A DNA stretch of 64,000 nucleotides. Origin: Candidatus Zixiibacteriota bacterium. GTDB taxonomy: Bacteria > Zixibacteria > MSB-5A5 > WJJR01 > JAJRUJ01. A model generated the notes under the pieces. The model ran no database searches, was not told where the DNA came from, and worked only from the letters and a program-made list of their open reading frames with translations. The stretch covers positions 1 to 64,000 of the forward strand of contig JAGVQM010000024.1 in NCBI GenBank assembly GCA_020051695.1, given 5' to 3'. Of this stretch, positions 8,931 to 48,791 are shown in pieces (positions within the stretch are counted from its first letter, which is position 1; each line of letters opens with the position of its first letter). The position numbers were made by a program, and so were the translations under genes.

Positions 8931-11471
8931 ATGATCTCACCACCAGAAAACCAAAATGGCGGGTTGGAATCGCATACTCGCGCTAATCAAGCCGAGCAAT
9001 TACCCTCCGAACTGCCCTGCCTGATCTTGAGTTCCGACGTGTTGTTTCCCCAGGGCACGGTCACGGCCCGGCTGCGCATGCCGTACAATCTGCTGTTGCT
9101 GGAGGCAATCTCCGACCCGCAAGCCCCAGTGGGCATCTTCAATATGTCGGGTGATCTCGATGGTTTTGTTCATGTCGATCGCCTCGGCAGTGTGGGCGTG
9201 GCGGCTGCGGTCATCAACCGGCGACATATCAGCGAAAAGGAAGTGCGGGTGACGCTGGAGGGTTATCGCCGGGTATACCTGCGGCGTATGAAAGAGGTCA
9301 GTCCGTTCGCCGTCGCCGAGATCGGCGTGGTTGATGATGCCGCATTCGACGCCGAGCGGGCCGGACGCCTGGTCGATGATTGTTTTTCCCTCGCGCGCCG
9401 GCTGGTCGAAAAATCATCATCCTATCCCGCGGAATACACCAATATTTTTCATCTGTCACGTGACCACCCCGCGCGTTTCGCCGATTTGGTGGCCTCCGTT
9501 TTGCATCTGTCGGTGCAGGACCGCCGAAGGATTCTCGAGGCGGTCGACGTTGTCGACCGGCTGACCCTGCTGAAAGCCATTCTTCGCGACGAGTTGATCG
9601 GCCAGACGATGGCCGAGGAATTCGCCGACCGCGCCAAGGTGAGCGTGGCGCGGCATCAACGGCAAATGTTCCTCCGCGCGCAGTTGCAGGAGATCCGCAA
9701 GGAACTGGCCGAATCAGACCCGGCGACCAACGAAATCGCGCGGCTGGAAACCCGGATTGTCGAGGCCAAACTGCCGGTGGACGTCGAATCCCGCGCCCGG
9801 CTGGAACTGGACCGGCTGCAGGTGATCTCGACTGCTTCGGCTGAATATGTGCAGATTCGGAACTATGTCGATTGGCTGATCTCCCTGCCCTGGGGCGTAA
9901 AAGCCGCGCCGGAGTCCGATCCCGCGACGGTCCTGAAAATTCTCGATTCGAGTTTTTACGGGCAGAAAAAAGCCAAGGAACGGCTGTTGGAATTCCTGAC
10001 TCTGCCGGTCCAGGCCCGCCGGGGCGGCTCGGTGCCCTGTCTGGTCGGGCCGCCGGGGAGCGGCAAGACATTGTTAGCCCGGATTATTGCCCGGGCGCTG
10101 GGCCGCCAGTTTTTCAGCATTGATCTGGGACTTTTGCGATCGGAAACGACACTTAAGGGCAACCGCCGCACCTTTCCCGGGGCCATGCCGGGGCGTTTTT
10201 TGCGCATGTTATCGGAAATCGGCCGCTCCGACCCGGTATGTGTGCTGGAAGGTGTGGACCGGCTCACTGATGCCGATCGCCCCGACTTGTCCGGGATCAT
10301 CCTGGAAGCCGTCGATCCCGTGGAAAACGCCAGCTTCCTCGATTTTTATCTGGGGTTTCCCTTTGATTTGTCACAGGTGATGTTTGTGGCGACGGCAACA
10401 TCCGATGACGCGGTGCCCGAAATCCTGGCCGACCGCATGGAATTTATCGAATTGCCGGGATACCTCGAGGATGAAAAAATCGAGATCACCTTTCATCATT
10501 TAGTCCCCGAGCTGCTGGCACGGCACGGCCTTGATGCCGACGAAGTCAGTTTTACTGTCGGCGCCGCAAAGAAGATCATCCGCGAATATACTCTCGAATC
10601 GGGGCTGGCCAACCTCAAGAAAAATCTGGATGCGATCTTTCGCCGCATCGTCGCGGAAAAAGTTACCCGGAAAAAATCGTTTTTCCGCGTCAATGTCGGC
10701 CTGGTCGAACGGCTGCTGGGGACGCCGTATTTCCTGCCGGAGATGGCCGAACTGCGGCCGGAAGTCGGCGTGGCGACGGGGCTGGCCTGGACGCATACCG
10801 GCGGCGACATTATGATGATCGAGGCCCTGAAAATGCGCGGTTCCGGGACGGTGATCACCACGGGGTATCTGGGTGACGTCATGAAAGAATCGATTCAGGC
10901 CGCGCATTCGTATGTGCGCTCGCGCGCCGACTGGCTGAACATCCATTTGACCGACTTCACCAAACATGACGTGCACATCCATTTCCCCTCCGGGGCCATC
11001 CCCAAGGACGGCCCCTCGGCGGGGATCACCGTGTGCCTGGTGCTGGCCTCGGTGATGTCCGACCGCCCGATCCGCAACGACATTGCCTTTACCGGCGAAG
11101 TGTCGTTGCGCGGGAAGGTGCTGCCTGTAGGTGGATTAAAGGAAAAAATCGCTGCAGCCCACCGGGTGGGTATTCACCAAATCGTCCTGCCCAAGCGCAA
11201 CATCAAGGACCTGAAAGAAATTCCACGAGGGATCTCCAAATCAATGAGTTATCTCCCCGTGGAGCATGTCGATGAAGTTTTCGAGATCGCCCTATTGGAT
11301 TTCAATCCCGCGCAACAGAGTTTAGAATCGCTCTTGCGTCTGGAGCTGGAAAAAGCACTGAACCGGGAAAAGAAAAAACCGGCAAAAAAAATGCGCAAAG
11401 CTACAGCCGCCGGTCCCCGGGCCAGAAAGAAATCCGGTCCTTCACGGACGATAAACACCGGGAAACGATAA
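8931..11471 (+). CDS. Lon-like protease paralogue with altered Walker B
   Basis: 846 residues with the full LonA plan: N-terminal substrate domain, coiled-coil region, AAA+ module and Ser-Lys protease domain. Walker A is intact (GPPGSGKT, about residues 373-380) and the catalytic dyad is kept (Ser696 in DGPSAG, Lys737 in GGLKEK). However, the Walker B strand reads VCVLEGVDRL (about 436-445), where the conventional Lon in this window has FMLDEIDKI: Asp becomes Glu and the catalytic Glu becomes Gly. The sensor-1 region also changes (VATATS against ITTANL). The C-terminus carries a Lys/Arg-rich tail. It stands alone behind its own promoter, far from hsp20-lon. ATP binding with weak or no hydrolysis is inferred; a specialised or regulatory Lon is likely. 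Confidence 0.9.
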   Translation: MISPPENQNGGLESHTRANQAEQLPSELPCLILSSDVLFPQGTVTARLRMPYNLLLLEAISDPQAPVGIFNMSGDLDGFVHVDRLGSVGVAAAVINRRHISEKEVRVTLEGYRRVYLRRMKEVSPFAVAEIGVVDDAAFDAERAGRLVDDCFSLARRLVEKSSSYPAEYTNIFHLSRDHPARFADLVASVLHLSVQDRRRILEAVDVVDRLTLLKAILRDELIGQTMAEEFADRAKVSVARHQRQMFLRAQLQEIRKELAESDPATNEIARLETRIVEAKLPVDVESRARLELDRLQVISTASAEYVQIRNYVDWLISLPWGVKAAPESDPATVLKILDSSFYGQKKAKERLLEFLTLPVQARRGGSVPCLVGPPGSGKTLLARIIARALGRQFFSIDLGLLRSETTLKGNRRTFPGAMPGRFLRMLSEIGRSDPVCVLEGVDRLTDADRPDLSGIILEAVDPVENASFLDFYLGFPFDLSQVMFVATATSDDAVPEILADRMEFIELPGYLEDEKIEITFHHLVPELLARHGLDADEVSFTVGAAKKIIREYTLESGLANLKKNLDAIFRRIVAEKVTRKKSFFRVNVGLVERLLGTPYFLPEMAELRPEVGVATGLAWTHTGGDIMMIEALKMRGSGTVITTGYLGDVMKESIQAAHSYVRSRADWLNIHLTDFTKHDVHIHFPSGAIPKDGPSAGITVCLVLASVMSDRPIRNDIAFTGEVSLRGKVLPVGGLKEKIAAAHRVGIHQIVLPKRNIKDLKEIPRGISKSMSYLPVEHVDEVFEIALLDFNPAQQSLESLLRLELEKALNREKKKPAKKMRKATAAGPRARKKSGPSRTINTGKR

Positions 11472-11484
11472 ACGTAACCGCTGC

Positions 11485-11946
11485 TCACCGCCGCAGCGGG
11501 AGTTTCCATTCTATTTCGCCCTCAAAAAATATGTCGGTATTGATGAAGCCCAGCTTCGTGTACAGTTTTTCCGCTTTGACATTCCCGGGGAACACCGTCA
11601 GCCCGATTTCCCGGCATTGGGGAAAATCGGCTTTAATTCGCGCAATAGCGGCATGCATTGCCGCCCGGCCATACCCACGGCCCTGCCGGGTTTTGTCGAT
11701 TAAAAGACCATTGATCCAATAGCAGTCGGTGCTGTCCGGATCATAACAAATCGAAAGAAATCCCACCGCCTCGTTTTCGGCGTATACTGCCAGCGGCAAA
11801 TAACGGCGTTGTGGGGCGCCGGGCTGCACATAGGCCTCGGCCAGCGACCAGACCACCGAGGGCGTCAGCTTCTCCTGCTCAGGCAGCACGCCCAGCACGA
11901 TGACCTCCAGCCAGTTTTCTTCTGTTATTTCGCGCAAGGTCACCAT
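11485..11946 (-). CDS. GNAT family N-acetyltransferase
   Basis: A 153-residue acetyl-CoA-dependent acyltransferase fold. The acetyl-CoA loop RQGRGYGRAAM lies about two thirds along, preceded by the INGLLID strand and followed by GLTVFPGNVKAEKLYTKLGF, the usual motif B. The start at 11946 is chosen because GGAGAAA lies just upstream; an earlier in-frame ATG at 11970 lacks a site. It converges with the Lon paralogue, 13 bases apart. Resembles spermidine/antibiotic-type GNATs, but the acceptor cannot be told from sequence. Confidence 0.85.
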   Translation of the reverse strand: MVTLREITEENWLEVIVLGVLPEQEKLTPSVVWSLAEAYVQPGAPQRRYLPLAVYAENEAVGFLSICYDPDSTDCYWINGLLIDKTRQGRGYGRAAMHAAIARIKADFPQCREIGLTVFPGNVKAEKLYTKLGFINTDIFFEGEIEWKLPLRR

Positions 11947-12289
11947 CGCCGATTTTCTCCGGTTCAACATACCCTGCCGGCGGGCAATTCACCATGGTTA
12001 TCTGCTCGACAATTCCAGGATCGGACAAAAAGCCGATTGTTGCGGATAAATTGCGGGTCAATGAGTTGACAATTTATCTTTCGGTTGTATCGTATATCAG
12101 GTGGATGGTGGAGTAAACCCGCCTGTTGGCCGGGTGGGTTTGGCGGTGTGGGATGGTTTTTTTTACCGCAGGGGTTTTTGCCCTTTCGGCGACCGTAGTA
12201 CCAGCCGCAACGTGACGACATAAATAACAGAGACAAGGTGTTTCCCGTCGCGCAGCGCAGGTGATACCGAGCAGGGGAGGATTGTTGTG
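11947..12289. other. Intergenic region between divergent genes
   Basis: Holds a promoter candidate at 12066-12093 for the M1 peptidase and an approximately 200-base leader. The leader includes G-rich complementary runs (around 12115-12150) that could form hairpins. No gene seen. Confidence 0.4.
12066..12093 (+). promoter_or_regulatory. Probable promoter of the M1 peptidase gene
   Basis: TTGACA (12066-12071), 16-base spacer, TATCGT (12088-12093); an alternative -10, GTATAT, overlaps just downstream. Predicted leader to ATG 12290 is near 190 bases. Confidence 0.45.
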
Positions 12290-14527
12290 ATGGTACTTCG
12301 ATGGTCGGCGATGGTTTTGGTGTGTATTCTGGTCCTGGCCTCGGTCGCAGCCGGTTCGGACGGCAACCGCACCACTCCATACAGTGAATTGGTCCCGATG
12401 ACTCCCAGTGAGATGCACCGCATCCTGGCTGAAAACAAGGCCGCGGCCGCCGGGCGTTTTCAGACGTTGTCGGCCATGTATCGGCAGCTGGCCGCCGGTC
12501 AGGAGGACATGGATGCGCGTTACTACAAAATTGAACTGCGCGTCGATGAAATCTCCGAGTTGATCTATGGCCGTCTGACCATGATCGGGCGCTCGCTGGT
12601 GGACGGTTATGCGCAAGTCGCCCTCGATTTTTTTGATAATATGGACGTCGATTCGGTATTTGACGAGGGGGTATACAGGACCGGCTGGACTCACGCCGAC
12701 ACTCTCGTAACTATAAATCTGTCTGCCGTTTACGATATCGGCGAGGAATTCGAGGTGACGATCGTGTACCATGGCCACCCGACCGAGGGCGGCTTTCAGG
12801 GGTTTTCCTTCGATACGCATAATGGCGTCCCGATTATCTCCACGCTTTCCGAACCGTTTATGGCGCGGACCTGGTGGCCCTGCAAGGACCGTCCGGACGA
12901 CAAGGCCGATTCGGTGGATATCATCGTCGAGGTCAACTCGGATTTTTTCTGTTCCTCCAATGGTACGCTCCGCGATTCAGTGGACAATGGCGGCACCACT
13001 ACGTACTGGTGGCATGAACAATACCCGATCACGACGTACCTGGTTTCGCTGGCCATTACCAATTACCAACATTTTTACCGCTGGTACCGTTATGGTCCGG
13101 GCGATTCCGATTCGATGCTGGTGGATTTTTACCCGTATCCCGAACGGTACTGGGATGCCCTGGTCCCGTGGTCGGAAACGCCGCAGATGATCGCGTTTTT
13201 TGCCGACACATTTGGTGAATATCCATTCATTGAGGAAAAGTACGGCATGACTCACTTCCCCTGGGGCGGGGCCATGGAGCATCAGACCAATACCTCCGCC
13301 ACCTCGGACGCGTTCGGTTTCGACCGCTATTTGATCGCGCACGAGCTGGCCCACCAGTGGTGGGGTGACCTGATTACCTGCGAGTCGTGGCACCACATCT
13401 GGTTGAACGAGGGTTTTGCCTCGTATAGCGAGGCCCTGTATGCCGAACACCTCGGCGGTTCGGCGGCGCTTCATAATTATATGGTTGGCATGCAGTATTG
13501 GAGCGGCGGTTCGATTTATGTCGCCAACCCGACATCGGTCGGCGCCATTTTTTCGCTGCGGGCGTACGATAAAGGCGCCTGGGTGCTGCATATGTTGCGG
13601 CGGCATGTCGGTCATCAGGTCTTTTTCGACATCCTCCGCGCCTATTACAGTCATCCTGATTACGCCCATGCCCACGCCAACACCGAGGATTTCCGCGACC
13701 TGTGCGAGACTGTTTCGGGCCAAAACCTGCATGCATTTTTCGAGGATTGGATTTACGGTACATATTATCCAAAATACTACTATTCCTGGCAGGCCGCCCC
13801 GGGTGCGCCCGGTGAGTTTAACATCTTCCTGCACCTCGACCAATACCAGACCTCCGCGCCGCTGGTGTTCGACATGCCGATTGATATCACGGTGCATCGC
13901 AGTTCCGGGGGCATCGATACGCTGCAGGTGTACAACACCGCCCGGGCGCAGGATTTTGTCCTGACTGTTGCCGATGTGACCGCGCCGACCGCGGTGGGTT
14001 TTGATCCGGCCAACTGGATTTTGGATAACCACAGTTTGACGGCATATACGTTCCATATCGCCAACGAGACGTTGAGTGCAGGTAATATGACCGCAGCTTA
14101 TGAAGATTCGGTGTTTGCTAGGGGCGGGACGACACCGTATGAATTCTCCTTGACCGCCGGGGTGTTGCCGGACGGACTGACCCTGAATTCGGCCACCGGC
14201 AAAATCACCGGCGTACCCACTGAATTCGGCGATTTTATTTTCACCGTGACCGCCGATGATGCCGGCACGTATGTGGACACGCAGGAGTTTACCCTGACGA
14301 TCAATGAAGGCCCGGGGTATTATCCCGGCGATTTGCAGAACGACGGCGATGTCGATCCAGTCGATGTCGTATATATCGTGAACTATGTCTACCGTTCGAG
14401 TCCGCCGGCCGTGCTCAACTCGGCGGATGTCGATGGCAGTTGTTCGGTCGAACCGGTGGACGTGCAAGTGCTGGTCAACTATGTCTATCGCAACCGGGGT
14501 GTGCTGGTACCGGGGTGCGTTGAATAA
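12290..14527 (+). CDS. Secreted M1 family aminopeptidase with Ig-like and dockerin domains
   Basis: Zinc metallopeptidase of the M1 (gluzincin) family that would trim peptides outside the cytoplasm. After a signal peptide (MVLRWSAMVLVCILVLASVAAG) come the N-terminal saddle domain, the substrate-anchoring GGAMEHQTN motif (about residue 325), and HELAHQWWGD (about 350) with the third zinc ligand in LNEGFASY. A C-terminal putative-Ig (He_PIG type) module follows, with the marks LPDGLTLNSATG and ITGVPTEFG. The end is a dockerin pair (GDLQNDGDVDPVDVVYIVNYVYR; ADVDGSCSVEPVDV). A strong AGGGGAGG lies at 12273-12280; GTG 12287 or ATG 12290 are both possible starts. Catalytic residues look complete. 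Confidence 0.93.
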   Translation: MVLRWSAMVLVCILVLASVAAGSDGNRTTPYSELVPMTPSEMHRILAENKAAAAGRFQTLSAMYRQLAAGQEDMDARYYKIELRVDEISELIYGRLTMIGRSLVDGYAQVALDFFDNMDVDSVFDEGVYRTGWTHADTLVTINLSAVYDIGEEFEVTIVYHGHPTEGGFQGFSFDTHNGVPIISTLSEPFMARTWWPCKDRPDDKADSVDIIVEVNSDFFCSSNGTLRDSVDNGGTTTYWWHEQYPITTYLVSLAITNYQHFYRWYRYGPGDSDSMLVDFYPYPERYWDALVPWSETPQMIAFFADTFGEYPFIEEKYGMTHFPWGGAMEHQTNTSATSDAFGFDRYLIAHELAHQWWGDLITCESWHHIWLNEGFASYSEALYAEHLGGSAALHNYMVGMQYWSGGSIYVANPTSVGAIFSLRAYDKGAWVLHMLRRHVGHQVFFDILRAYYSHPDYAHAHANTEDFRDLCETVSGQNLHAFFEDWIYGTYYPKYYYSWQAAPGAPGEFNIFLHLDQYQTSAPLVFDMPIDITVHRSSGGIDTLQVYNTARAQDFVLTVADVTAPTAVGFDPANWILDNHSLTAYTFHIANETLSAGNMTAAYEDSVFARGGTTPYEFSLTAGVLPDGLTLNSATGKITGVPTEFGDFIFTVTADDAGTYVDTQEFTLTINEGPGYYPGDLQNDGDVDPVDVVYIVNYVYRSSPPAVLNSADVDGSCSVEPVDVQVLVNYVYRNRGVLVPGCVE

Positions 14528-44900: not shown

Positions 44901-45104
44901 ATGGTTGTCAGGAAGGCCGTCAGAAAAGGGGCGAAGAAGGTAGCCAGGAAAAAGGTCGCCAAGAAGAAAGTCGCCAGGAAACCGGCGCGCAAGGCTGCGG
45001 CCAGGAAACCGGCCAAGAAACATTGCGCGGCCAAGACAATGGCCGGGAAAAAGTGCAAGCGGTACACCACCGGCAATTCGAAATTCTGCGCGGCCCATAA
45101 TTGA
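44901..45104 (+). CDS. Histone H1-like basic protein with C-terminal zinc-knuckle motif (copy 1)
   Basis: 67 residues. Residues 1-41 are almost only Lys, Arg, Ala and Val in VARK/AKK repeats, like the lysine-rich tails of bacterial H1-like proteins. The C-terminus carries Cys42, Cys52, Cys63 and His66, spacing C-x9-C-x10-C-x2-H, in the context CAAKTMAGKKCKRYTTGN. It resembles small zinc-binding motifs (C..aT..G..Ck...g..yC..H) in some FCB and chlamydial proteins. DNA or RNA compaction is inferred from the charge. GGGAGGCAGGTC before the ATG, own terminator after. A paralogue follows at 45540. Confidence 0.82.
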   Translation: MVVRKAVRKGAKKVARKKVAKKKVARKPARKAAARKPAKKHCAAKTMAGKKCKRYTTGNSKFCAAHN

Positions 45105-45539: not shown

Positions 45540-45794
45540 ATGGTTGCAAGGAAGAAAGCAGCAGGGAAAAAAGTGAAAAAGGCCACACGGAAGGTGGCCC
45601 GGAAGAAAGTGGCCAAGAAAGTAGCCAAGAAACGCGTGGCCAAGAAAAAGACCATGAAGAAAGCTAAACCGGCCAGGAAAAAAGCTGCGGCCAAGAAAGC
45701 GCCCAAGCAGCGTTGCGCGGCCAAGACCGCGGCCGGGAAACCGTGCAAGCGCTTTGTGACCGGCAAAGCAAAATTCTGTGCCGCGCATAAGTAA
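45540..45794 (+). CDS. Histone H1-like basic protein with C-terminal zinc-knuckle motif (copy 2)
   Basis: 84 residues, a longer paralogue of the protein at 44901. Residues 1-57 are Lys/Arg/Ala/Val repeats (VARKKVAKK, AKKRVAKKK) and the end is Cys59, Cys69, Cys80, His83 with the same C-x9-C-x10-C-x2-H spacing (CAAKTAAGKPCKRF, FCAAHK). Length differs only in the number of basic repeats. Translation signal GGAGGCAGTCATGGTTG is nearly the same as for copy 1. Its own terminator follows, before convergent lon. Nucleoid binding is inferred only. Confidence 0.83.
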   Translation: MVARKKAAGKKVKKATRKVARKKVAKKVAKKRVAKKKTMKKAKPARKKAAAKKAPKQRCAAKTAAGKPCKRFVTGKAKFCAAHK

Positions 45795-45904: not shown

Positions 45905-48319
45905 TCACGTGCGTTTGGCCGGCCCGCGTACTGTCCGGTCTTTGGGACTTTTCCCGCCCGGCGATTTTTTGGTGATGCCCGGCAGGGCAATATCCAGCAC
46001 TTCTTTGATGCGCCGTACCGGGATAAACTCGACATTTTTGCGGACTTCTTCCGGGATTTCCACCAGGTCTTTTTCGTTGTCTTTCGGTATAATCACCCGC
46101 TTGATGCCGGAACGGTAAGCGGCCAGCGATTTTTCTTTCAGGCCGCCGATGGCCAATACCTGACCATGCAGGGTGATCTCACCGGTCATGCCCAGGCGCG
46201 GGGCAACAGGTCTGTTCGTCAGCAGTGAAGCGATTGCCGTGGCGATGGTGATCCCGGCGGACGGGCCGTCTTTGGGTGTTGCTCCGGCGGGGACATGGAC
46301 ATGGAAATCGGTTTTGGCGAACATTTCCTGATCAAGGCCCAGTCGCCGGTAATCCGAGCGAATGTTGGTCAGCGCGGCCTTAACCGACTCTTTCATGACA
46401 TCACCCAATGACCCGGTCAGCGTCAGATTCCCCTTGCCCGGCATGGAGGAGACTTCGACAAACAATAAGCTGCCGCCGGCCGAGGTCCACGCCAGTCCGG
46501 GAACGACACCGATTTGTGCCGTCCGATCGATGAGTTCGGGCAGGAATTTGACCGGACCGAGGTATGTATGGAGTTTGTCGGCTTTGATAACCACGGCGCT
46601 CTTTTTCCCTGTGGCTACGACCCTGGCGACTTTGCGGCAGATTGTCGCGACTTCGCGGTCGAGATTGCGCAGCCCCGATTCTCGCGTATAATCGCGAATA
46701 ATCCGCTTAAGGACCGCATCGGAGAAAAGGATGTGGCGTTTTTTCAGCCCATGATTTTCCAGCTCCCGGGGGACAAGATATCGTTTGGCGATCTGGACTT
46801 TCTCCAGGTCGGTGTATCCCGGCATCTCGATGACTTCCATCCGGTCTCGAAGCACGGCCGGAATCGGGTGCAGCAGATTGGCCGTGGTGATGAACATGAC
46901 ATTTGACAGATCAAATGGCACGTCCAGATAATGGTCGGAAAAGGAATTGTTTTGTTCCGGGTCGAGGACCTCCAAGAGGGCTGAAGCGGGGTCGCCGCGG
47001 AAATCCTGGCCGATTTTATCGATCTCATCGAGCATGAAAACCGGGTTATTGGATTCTGCCCGCCGCAGTCCCTGAATAATGCGTCCCGGCAGCGCGCCGA
47101 TGTAGGTCCGCCGGTGCCCGCGGATTTCCGCCTCATCCCGCATCCCGCCCAGCGAAATGCGCTGGAACTTCCGGCCCATCGCCCGGGCGATGGAACGGCC
47201 CAGCGAGGTCTTGCCCACGCCCGGCGGGCCGACGAAGCATAGAATCGGGCCTTTCAGATCGGCTTTGAGTTTGCGGACGGCCAGGAATTCCAGGATCCGT
47301 TCCTTGACCTTTTCCAGATCATAGTGGTCCTCATCGAGGATCGCCAGGGCTTTATTAATGTCCAGAATGTCCCTGGATTTCCGGTCCCAGGGCAGGCAGA
47401 CCAGCCAGTCCAAATAGGTGCGCGAGACGGTATATTCCGCGGCCGAGGGGTTCATTTTCGACAGCCGGTCGAGTTCTTTTTCCGCGGCTTTCAGCGCCAG
47501 TTCCGGCATATGGGCTTCCGCGATTTTCTTTTTGAACTCGTCAAGTTCTTCGGTCCGGTCGTCGCTGTCGCCCAGTTCCCGGCGGATGGCCTTGAGCTGT
47601 TCGCGCAGGATAAACTCTTTTTGCATCCGCCCCATTTCCGTGGCGGCCTCGGATTGGATCTTGTGCGAGAGTTCGAGGACCTCGATTTCCTTTTTCACCT
47701 GCGTGAGCACTTTTTCCAGGCGTGTTTTGATATCAAATGTCGCCAAGATGTCCTGGCGTTTTTCGGTCGAGAGGTTCAAATTGGAGGCGATGAGGTCCGC
47801 CAATTTGCCGGCCTCTTCGGTGTTGATCGCCGAAATTTGCAGGTCCTCGGATAAGTTGGGGGAGAGGGCGACGGCCTGTTTGATCAGTTCATGCGCATGC
47901 CGGACCAGCGCCTCGATTTCCACGGTCGTTTTCACCTGTTCCTCGATCAGCTCCGTCCGGGCCGTAATGAACGGTTCGGAACGTACGATCTCGGTAATTT
48001 TAACCCGTGAAAGCCCCTGGACCAGAAACCGCACCGACCCGTCCGGGAAACGCAGCATCTTCAGGATGGTCCCGACGGTACCCACGCGATAGATTCCCTC
48101 CGGACCGGGGTTTTCCTCGTCCGGCGTCTTCTGGGCGAACAGGCCGATGGCCCGGCCTTTCATAAGCGTCTGATCGATTAACCGGGCATATTTCTCGTCG
48201 TTGATCATCAGCGGCATGACCATTGAGGGAAATACCACGACCGCTTTGGTCGGCAGAATGGCCAGTTCATCGCCTTGTTCTCTTATTTTTTGTAACAATT
48301 CATGTTCCGATTCAGGCAT
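45905..48319 (-). CDS. lon: ATP-dependent protease Lon
   Basis: 804-residue LonA. The N-terminal domain starts [20 protein letters not shown]; the AAA+ module has GPPGVGKT (about 363-370), an intact Walker [11 protein letters not shown] (about 425-434) and sensor-1 ITTANL; the protease domain has Ser687 in DGPSAG and Lys728 in GGLKEK. The start at 48319 has GGAGGTG seven bases upstream; the open frame reaches further into hsp20 but that part is antisense-like noise. It lies 19 bases after the second hsp20, so the two are one operon. This is the conventional Lon of the window. Confidence 0.96.
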
Positions 48320-48338
48320 GACACCTCCACGGACATCT

Positions 48339-48791
48339 TTACTTATCGGTGATTTCGATCTCACGCGCGATATCCGGCGGCGACGCGTGTTTGTGGATCG
48401 CAATTTCCAGAAAGCCATCCTTGTAGGTGGCGCTGACATGGTCCGGATCGGCAGTATCCGGCAGAAGGATGTTCCGCTCGAATCGGCCGTAGGTCAGCTC
48501 CATATTGCGATAGACACAATCGTCGGCTTCCAGTTCCTTCTGCCGTGAACCGCGGATCAGCAGTACGTTGTCCTTCACCCTGATCGAGATTTTGTCTTTG
48601 GCCACTCCGGCGATTTCGGTGCGGACGATAATTTTGTCCGAATACTCCAGCACGTCCGTCGGCGGGCGCCAGATCCGGTTGACCGACAACAGCGGCGAAG
48701 CCCACAAATTGCGAAACTGATTGAACAACTGGTCCATTTCCTCCTGGACCGGGCTGGTACCCTTCCAGGGATTCTTTTTGGGATCATCCAT
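48339..48791 (-). CDS. Small heat-shock protein, Hsp20 family (second copy)
   Basis: 150 residues, clearly different from the copy at 36956. The alpha-crystallin core runs from about residue 42 to 140 (RPPTDVLEYSDKIIVRTEIAGV, ISIRVKDNVLLIRGSRQKE, ERNILLPDTADPDHVSATYKDGFLEIAI). N-terminus is amphipathic and Trp-rich (NPWKG, FRNLWASPLL). GAGGAG precedes ATG 48791. Located immediately upstream of lon: a holdase coupled to degradation, matching the other copy coupled to refolding. Confidence 0.92.
   Translation of the reverse strand: MDDPKKNPWKGTSPVQEEMDQLFNQFRNLWASPLLSVNRIWRPPTDVLEYSDKIIVRTEIAGVAKDKISIRVKDNVLLIRGSRQKELEADDCVYRNMELTYGRFERNILLPDTADPDHVSATYKDGFLEIAIHKHASPPDIAREIEITDK

Follow-up and report, generated by a model that had tools for sequence, protein, structure and literature searches.

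A clade of LonA-derived proteases with degenerate ATPase motifs and an invariant protease site in Candidatus Zixiibacteriota

The stretch of DNA analysed here (64,000 nucleotides from the start of contig JAGVQM010000024.1, assembly GCA_020051695.1, Candidatus Zixiibacteriota; hereafter the window) encodes a canonical LonA, P0002, and a second full-length Lon, P0001, in which the ATPase motifs are degenerate and the protease site is intact. P0001 belongs to a single clade of LonA paralogues with members in 14 of 19 families surveyed in one Candidatus Zixiibacteriota class, across which the residues of the ATPase have been lost while the strictest constraint falls on the protease domain. Taken together with the precedent of the LonC protein MtaLonC, these sequence features suggest that P0001 is probably a LonA-derived hexameric chamber protease that degrades unfolded chains independently of ATP.

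Loss of ATPase motifs across the paralogues

P0001 is recognised as a Lon by the NCBIfam model TIGR00763 (656 bits against a cut-off of 608), carries the Pfam domains PF02190 (LON_substr_bdg), PF00004 (AAA), PF22667 (Lon_lid) and PF05362 (Lon_C) in one chain, and has EcLonA (6u5z) as its top phmmer match. It is one of exactly two full-length Lon matches in its own genome and is 37% identical to the other, P0002, in pairwise alignment. The AAA+ domain is the divergent part, scoring 54.6 bits against PF00004 compared with 86.1 bits for P0002. A first-pass annotation of the window had described an altered Walker B segment, VCVLEGVDRL, and comparison with P0002 confirms it: Glu440 replaces the metal-binding Asp and Gly441 the catalytic Glu, although the span given at that stage (10237-10266) is shifted by one base and does not follow the reading frame (Table 1). 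The same annotation was also correct that Walker A (GPPGSGKT) is intact and that sensor-1 differs, the Asn being replaced by Thr490; it did not pick up that the sensor-2 Arg is gone (Ala560), that pore loop 1 is changed or that a whole clade shares the decay.

To place these changes, Lon frames were extracted from related genomes and aligned, yielding 74 distinct sequences without the Walker B Asp-Glu pair and 105 with it, the latter being Lons of Zixiibacteriota and other phyla. The two groups were defined by this pair (0/74 paralogues against 105/105 canonical LonAs), and the remaining motifs are independent of that definition. Sensor-1 Asn is retained in 2/74 paralogues, sensor-2 Arg in 8/74 and the Walker A Thr in 24/74 (Ala in 45/74), each against 105/105 canonical sequences; Tyr415 of pore loop 1, likewise present in all 105, is Phe in 43 paralogues, Tyr in 12 and other residues in the rest. 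The Walker A Lys is kept in 72/74 and the arginine-finger Arg in 59/74, the latter having gone in several families although every one of the 105 canonical LonAs has it. In total, each paralogue retains between one and four of seven ATPase residues. Because the pair is missing from 74/74 of one group and 0/105 of the other, and because motifs outside the group definition were lost as well, the pattern is not attributable to chance.

The form of the Walker B segment varies within the group. Position 441 is Asp in 57/74 and Glu in 5/74, with Gly, Gln, Pro, Asn and Arg also found, and Asp443 is mostly kept. Relatives with a normal Asp-Glu had been named as what would count against the annotation, and none of the 74 carries it. 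LEGVD itself is not clade-wide and was rejected as a defining motif, since Glu-Asp is the commonest form and L004, the closest relative, has Glu-Glu. Glu-Gly, as LEGVD, recurs in other genomes (among them L006, L007, L136, L140 and L141), and the Gly441 codon of the window, GGT, is one base from the Asp codon GAT.

The protease site shows the opposite pattern. Glu631, His682, His684, Asp693, Ser696 and Lys739 are each present in 74/74 paralogues. The catalytic dyad had been reported as intact with Ser696 and Lys737; the serine was identified correctly and the site is indeed kept, but the lysine lies two residues further on. LonA catalytic Ser and Lys have 42 residues between them (PMC9569914), a spacing that designates Lys739. 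This residue is invariant in both groups (74/74 and 105/105), and at position 737 Arg, Ile and Val also occur. Across the alignment, 135 positions are near-universal in canonical LonAs, of which 25 were lost in the decayed group, all within the AAA+ part (25/82; the protease domain lost 0/44 and the N domain 0/9). A Fisher test of AAA+ versus protease gave p = 8e-6, a value that is only a guide because the sequences are related.

Distribution and a single origin

In the five remaining families (f3, f4, f9, f11 and f15; 17 genomes), the best matches inspected were canonical Lons. Trees were built from protease-domain columns only, and thus without any of the lost motifs. The decayed proteins nevertheless formed one clade, with bootstrap support of 100, a Shimodaira-Hasegawa-like approximate likelihood ratio test (SH-aLRT) value of 97 and recovery in 200/200 bootstrap trees (26 rows), and again in a 40-row tree with an SH-aLRT of 98; no Asp-Glu sequence fell inside it. 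The decayed clade thus has a single origin. Its sister is a LonA lineage of Gemmatimonadota (L038 and L222-L233; support 95/83), and the 13 sequences sampled from it have every ATPase motif intact; three further Gemmatimonadota loci (L236, L239 and L244) were left out for lack of a usable Lon frame. The presence of a decayed Lon in that phylum was rejected because its closest LonAs are intact, and, with no losses in the sampled sister sequences, the decay most likely arose on the stem of the Zixiibacteriota clade.

Two further observations concern Lons in these genomes. The decayed Lons of family f14 are approximately 560-580 residues long and lack the N-terminal substrate-binding domain, consisting of AAA-like and protease domains only (Table 1). 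Separately, genomes G021 and G044 hold an extra canonical Lon (L171 and L172) that clusters not with the main Zixiibacteriota Lon but with LonAs from other phyla.

Selection and predicted structure

Mean pairwise identities across the N, AAA+ and protease domains are 32, 47 and 70% in the decayed clade and 59, 75 and 62% in canonical Zixiibacteriota Lon, a comparison that is approximate as the two sets sample non-identical genomes. The protease is the most conserved domain in the decayed clade and the N domain the least, whereas AAA+ is the most conserved in canonical Lon. Constraint has therefore moved from the AAA+ to the protease domain, which is held more tightly than in the parent type. 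The ratio of non-synonymous to synonymous substitution rates (dN/dS) is approximately 0.01-0.17 in unsaturated full-length pairs, generally lowest in the protease domain; the gene is under purifying selection and is maintained, in agreement with the initial view that gene decay was unlikely. A decaying pseudogene or sequencing error, for which nothing speaks beyond the missing motif residues themselves, was rejected as having a negligible probability, given full-length frames in tens of species sharing the pattern, dN/dS far below 1, an invariant protease site and the recurrence of Glu-Gly in other genomes.

An AlphaFold2 model of P0001, built from a 24-row alignment, had a mean predicted local distance difference test score (pLDDT) of 77.5 and a predicted template modelling score (pTM) of 0.47. 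Its best structural matches were all LonA-type proteases, both bacterial and mitochondrial. The model supports a Lon fold and has no bearing on activity or assembly.

Comparison with known Lon types

Of the types compared, P0001 is nearest in sequence and fold to LonA (endopeptidase La, MEROPS S16.001), with which it shares the layout of N domain, AAA+, lid and protease as well as the Pro-Ser site and the 42-residue Ser-Lys spacing. It departs from LonA in the Walker B Asp-Glu, the sensor-1 Asn, the sensor-2 Arg and the pore loop, and in the shift of constraint to the protease. Judged by its sequence, P0001 is thus a LonA by descent, layout and protease-site type that lacks the ATPase motifs of the type, Arg502 being kept. 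The Gemmatimonadota LonAs, despite their sister position, show no such decay.

To our knowledge, a motor-less Lon design has so far been known only from the LonC branch. P0001 shares degenerate ATPase motifs and a kept protease site with LonC (MtaLonC, TTC1975, MEROPS S16.007). However, the LonC protease is LonB-like, with Asp before the catalytic Ser where P0001 has Pro695, and LonC carries two insertions and lacks the N domain of LonA, which P0001 keeps. The LonC insertion after the catalytic-Lys helix (CX3GLX(G/E)) is absent in P0001, which shows no gap there relative to P0002, and the match to a LonC structure (4fwg, E 4e-6) is weak and local, covering residues 680-786 of the protease domain only. 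On the protease-domain trees, which contain no LonB or LonC rows, the paralogue nests among LonAs. The protease-site type, the missing insertion and this nesting suggest an origin that may be independent of LonC, and LonC membership was rejected on the first two grounds. LonBA (Bacillus subtilis 'LonB') is another unusual Lon with a LonA-type protease site; it is described as presumably membrane-bound and as conserving its sensor and arginine-finger residues (PMC9569914), with no ATPase decay of the kind in P0001. Among the open papers searched, none was found that describes a LonA clade with a dead ATPase or a Lon in Zixibacteria, subscription journals being mostly outside this coverage.

Proposed function and alternatives

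Loss of such motifs removes ATP hydrolysis in AAA+ proteins. In MtaLonC, the catalytic Glu and both sensors are lost, and the protein binds nucleotide without hydrolysing it, its hexamer holding six nucleotides; without ATP it breaks down proteins that are unfolded and leaves folded ones uncut (PMC3391209). The loss of the hydrolysis motifs together with this precedent suggests that P0001 has probably lost ATPase activity, that it probably forms hexamers, and that it probably cleaves unfolded chains independently of ATP. A probable course of events is that LonA was duplicated, or a paralogue acquired, in an ancestor of this Zixiibacteriota class, and that the Walker B Asp and Glu, the sensor-1 Asn, the sensor-2 Arg and the canonical pore-loop residues were then lost as constraint on the Ser696-Lys739 site tightened. 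The AAA+ ring, unable to hydrolyse ATP, would most likely serve as a passive gate that lets in only unfolded polypeptides or peptides, which would then be cleaved without ATP; the P-loop Lys that it retains may still allow it to hold nucleotide. A non-hydrolysing ring is favoured over a slowed ATPase because the losses extend beyond the Walker B pair.

Several observations weigh against this proposal. P0001 retains Walker A and the arginine-finger Arg, and single ATPase residues survive in some relatives, L004 having both Glu441 and the sensor-1 Asn; a residual slow hydrolysis is therefore possible. Confidence in the structure model is moderate, and drops to its lowest in the altered loops, near pore loop 1 and past Walker B. 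Further, LonA hexamers with bound substrate can have the protease site in an inactive conformation (PMC8163871), such that the site of a non-cycling ring could be inactive.

An alternative considered unlikely is a nucleotide-switched peptidase, in which bound ATP or ADP, hydrolysed very slowly or not at all, would toggle the protease between states and so sense energy charge. There is room for such a switch because the P-loop Lys is retained and the arginine finger is frequent despite the loss of sensor-1, sensor-2 and Walker B, and the six nucleotides bound by MtaLonC without hydrolysis (PMC3391209) are also in its favour. However, the Walker A Thr replaced by Ala in most paralogues is the Mg-coordinating residue, and the arginine finger is gone in several families, so that preservation of the nucleotide site is uneven. 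The analysis yielded nothing positive in favour of the ATP-gated peptidase, the regulator or the mixed hexamers suggested in the first-pass annotation.

Quite improbable is an ATPase that remains active with rewired acids, through a Glu-Asp swap or another acid standing in for the lost Glu. The frequent Asp and occasional Glu at the catalytic position and the mostly kept Asp443 would be compatible with such rewiring, but Gly, Gln, Pro, Asn and Arg are also found at that position, with Gly in the window itself.

Marginally less probable again is a regulatory or heteromeric subunit that would form mixed rings with canonical Lon and slow or redirect it. Mixed hexamers had also been suggested at the outset, and a canonical Lon is generally present too in the paralogue-bearing genomes inspected, including that of the window; 59/74 paralogues also retain the arginine finger, which would work in trans on an adjacent subunit. 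This reading is weakened by the fast divergence of the AAA+ part, with an identity of 47% in the paralogue compared with 75% in the would-be partner, whose most conserved part this is, by the absence of the arginine finger in several families, and by the absence of the N domain in one. A pure regulator would, in addition, not need a protease site of its own, yet this is where the strictest constraint falls.

Feature coordinates and gene neighbourhood

Table 1. Positions of the features discussed (window coordinates unless a locus is named)
Feature	Position	Strand	Basis or remark
ATPase-decayed LonA paralogue gene P0001, 846 aa	8931-11471	+	Open reading frame (ORF); NCBIfam, Pfam, phmmer
N-terminal LON substrate-binding domain, residues 27-218	9009-9584	+	PF02190, 4.8e-20
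AAA+ alpha/beta module, residues 370-506	10038-10448	+	PF00004, 2e-14
Walker A GPPGSGKT, residues 373-380, intact	10047-10070	+	Alignment
Pore loop 1 region LKGNRRTFPGAMPG, altered relative to canonical	10152-10193	+	Alignment
Walker B VCVLEGVDRL, residues 436-445	10236-10265	+	Glu440-Gly441 codons 10248-10253
Sensor-1 position, Asn to Thr490	10398-10400	+	Alignment
Arginine finger position, Arg502 kept	10434-10436	+	Alignment
Sensor-2 position, Arg to Ala560	10608-10610	+	Alignment
Lon_C protease domain, residues 590-789	10698-11297	+	PF05362, 3.1e-80
Catalytic Ser696 after Pro695, LonA-type site	11016-11018	+	74/74 paralogues; criterion PMC9569914
Catalytic Lys739	11145-11147	+	74/74 paralogues, 105/105 canonical; spacing per PMC9569914
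GNAT acetyltransferase	11485-11970	-	
Secreted M1 aminopeptidase	12287-14527		
Lys/Ala-rich ORF	44901-45104	+	
Lys/Ala-rich ORF	45540-45794	+	
Canonical LonA P0002	45905-48439	-	All ATPase motifs intact
Hsp20-like small heat-shock gene	48339-48791	-	
f14 short Lon, L136	6446-8176	-	
f14 short Lon, L138	3006-4736		
f14 short Lon, L140	2485-4167	-	
f14 short Lon, L141	4542-6278	-	
f14 short Lon, L142	71-1804		
TldD/PmbA-like metallopeptidase, L116	2943-4658	-	Example
Hel308-like helicase, L129	10594-13299	-	Example

In 29/50 loci the decayed Lon is preceded on the same strand, usually immediately, by a gene for a Hel308-like superfamily II helicase, a pairing seen in seven families (f5, f6, f8, f12, f17, f18 and f19). 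For this neighbour NCBIfam points to Hel308-like helicases, below cut-off. The window has no helicase at that place; the copy in its genome is on another contig. A reading of the neighbouring helicase as part of a defence system was rejected, as the PADLOC matches to HamB look like generic helicase similarity. Downstream, a secreted M1 aminopeptidase occurs in 20/50 loci, including the window and its nearest relatives, and their having this neighbour in common is evidence that the loci are orthologous. In seven loci of families f1 and f2, the gene just downstream of the Lon encodes a TldD/PmbA-like metallopeptidase; the window has a GNAT acetyltransferase at that place.

No heat-shock element of the CIRCE type (controlling inverted repeat of chaperone expression) was found within the window, a promoter and terminator scan returned nothing specific to the P0001 gene, and a plasmid search gave no match. 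Directly upstream of P0002 is an Hsp20-like small heat-shock gene, and because it overlaps the longest Lon ORF, the true start of P0002 is probably at 48319. Elsewhere in the window, two short Lys/Ala-rich ORFs with a histone-H1-like composition have a C-terminal Cys/His motif in common, CAAKTxAGKxCKRxxTGxxKFCAAH.

Significance

On balance, if narrowly, the decayed clade is taken to represent a distinct Lon subfamily, so far of one Zixiibacteriota class, in which the LonC design would have been reinvented from LonA as an ATP-independent protease with its motor reduced to a passive or nucleotide-held gate. Since the NCBI 'endopeptidase La' model accepts P0001 above its cut-off, genes of this kind probably carry the label of an ATP-dependent Lon. 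Should the subfamily reading hold, two functions of a AAA+ protease that is among the best studied would have been separated naturally: dozens of species would carry a dismantled motor next to a chamber under tighter selection than in the parent. It would open to test whether a LonA chamber can work without ATP cycling, what role remains for the ring, and how frequently energy-free proteases have arisen from AAA+ machines.
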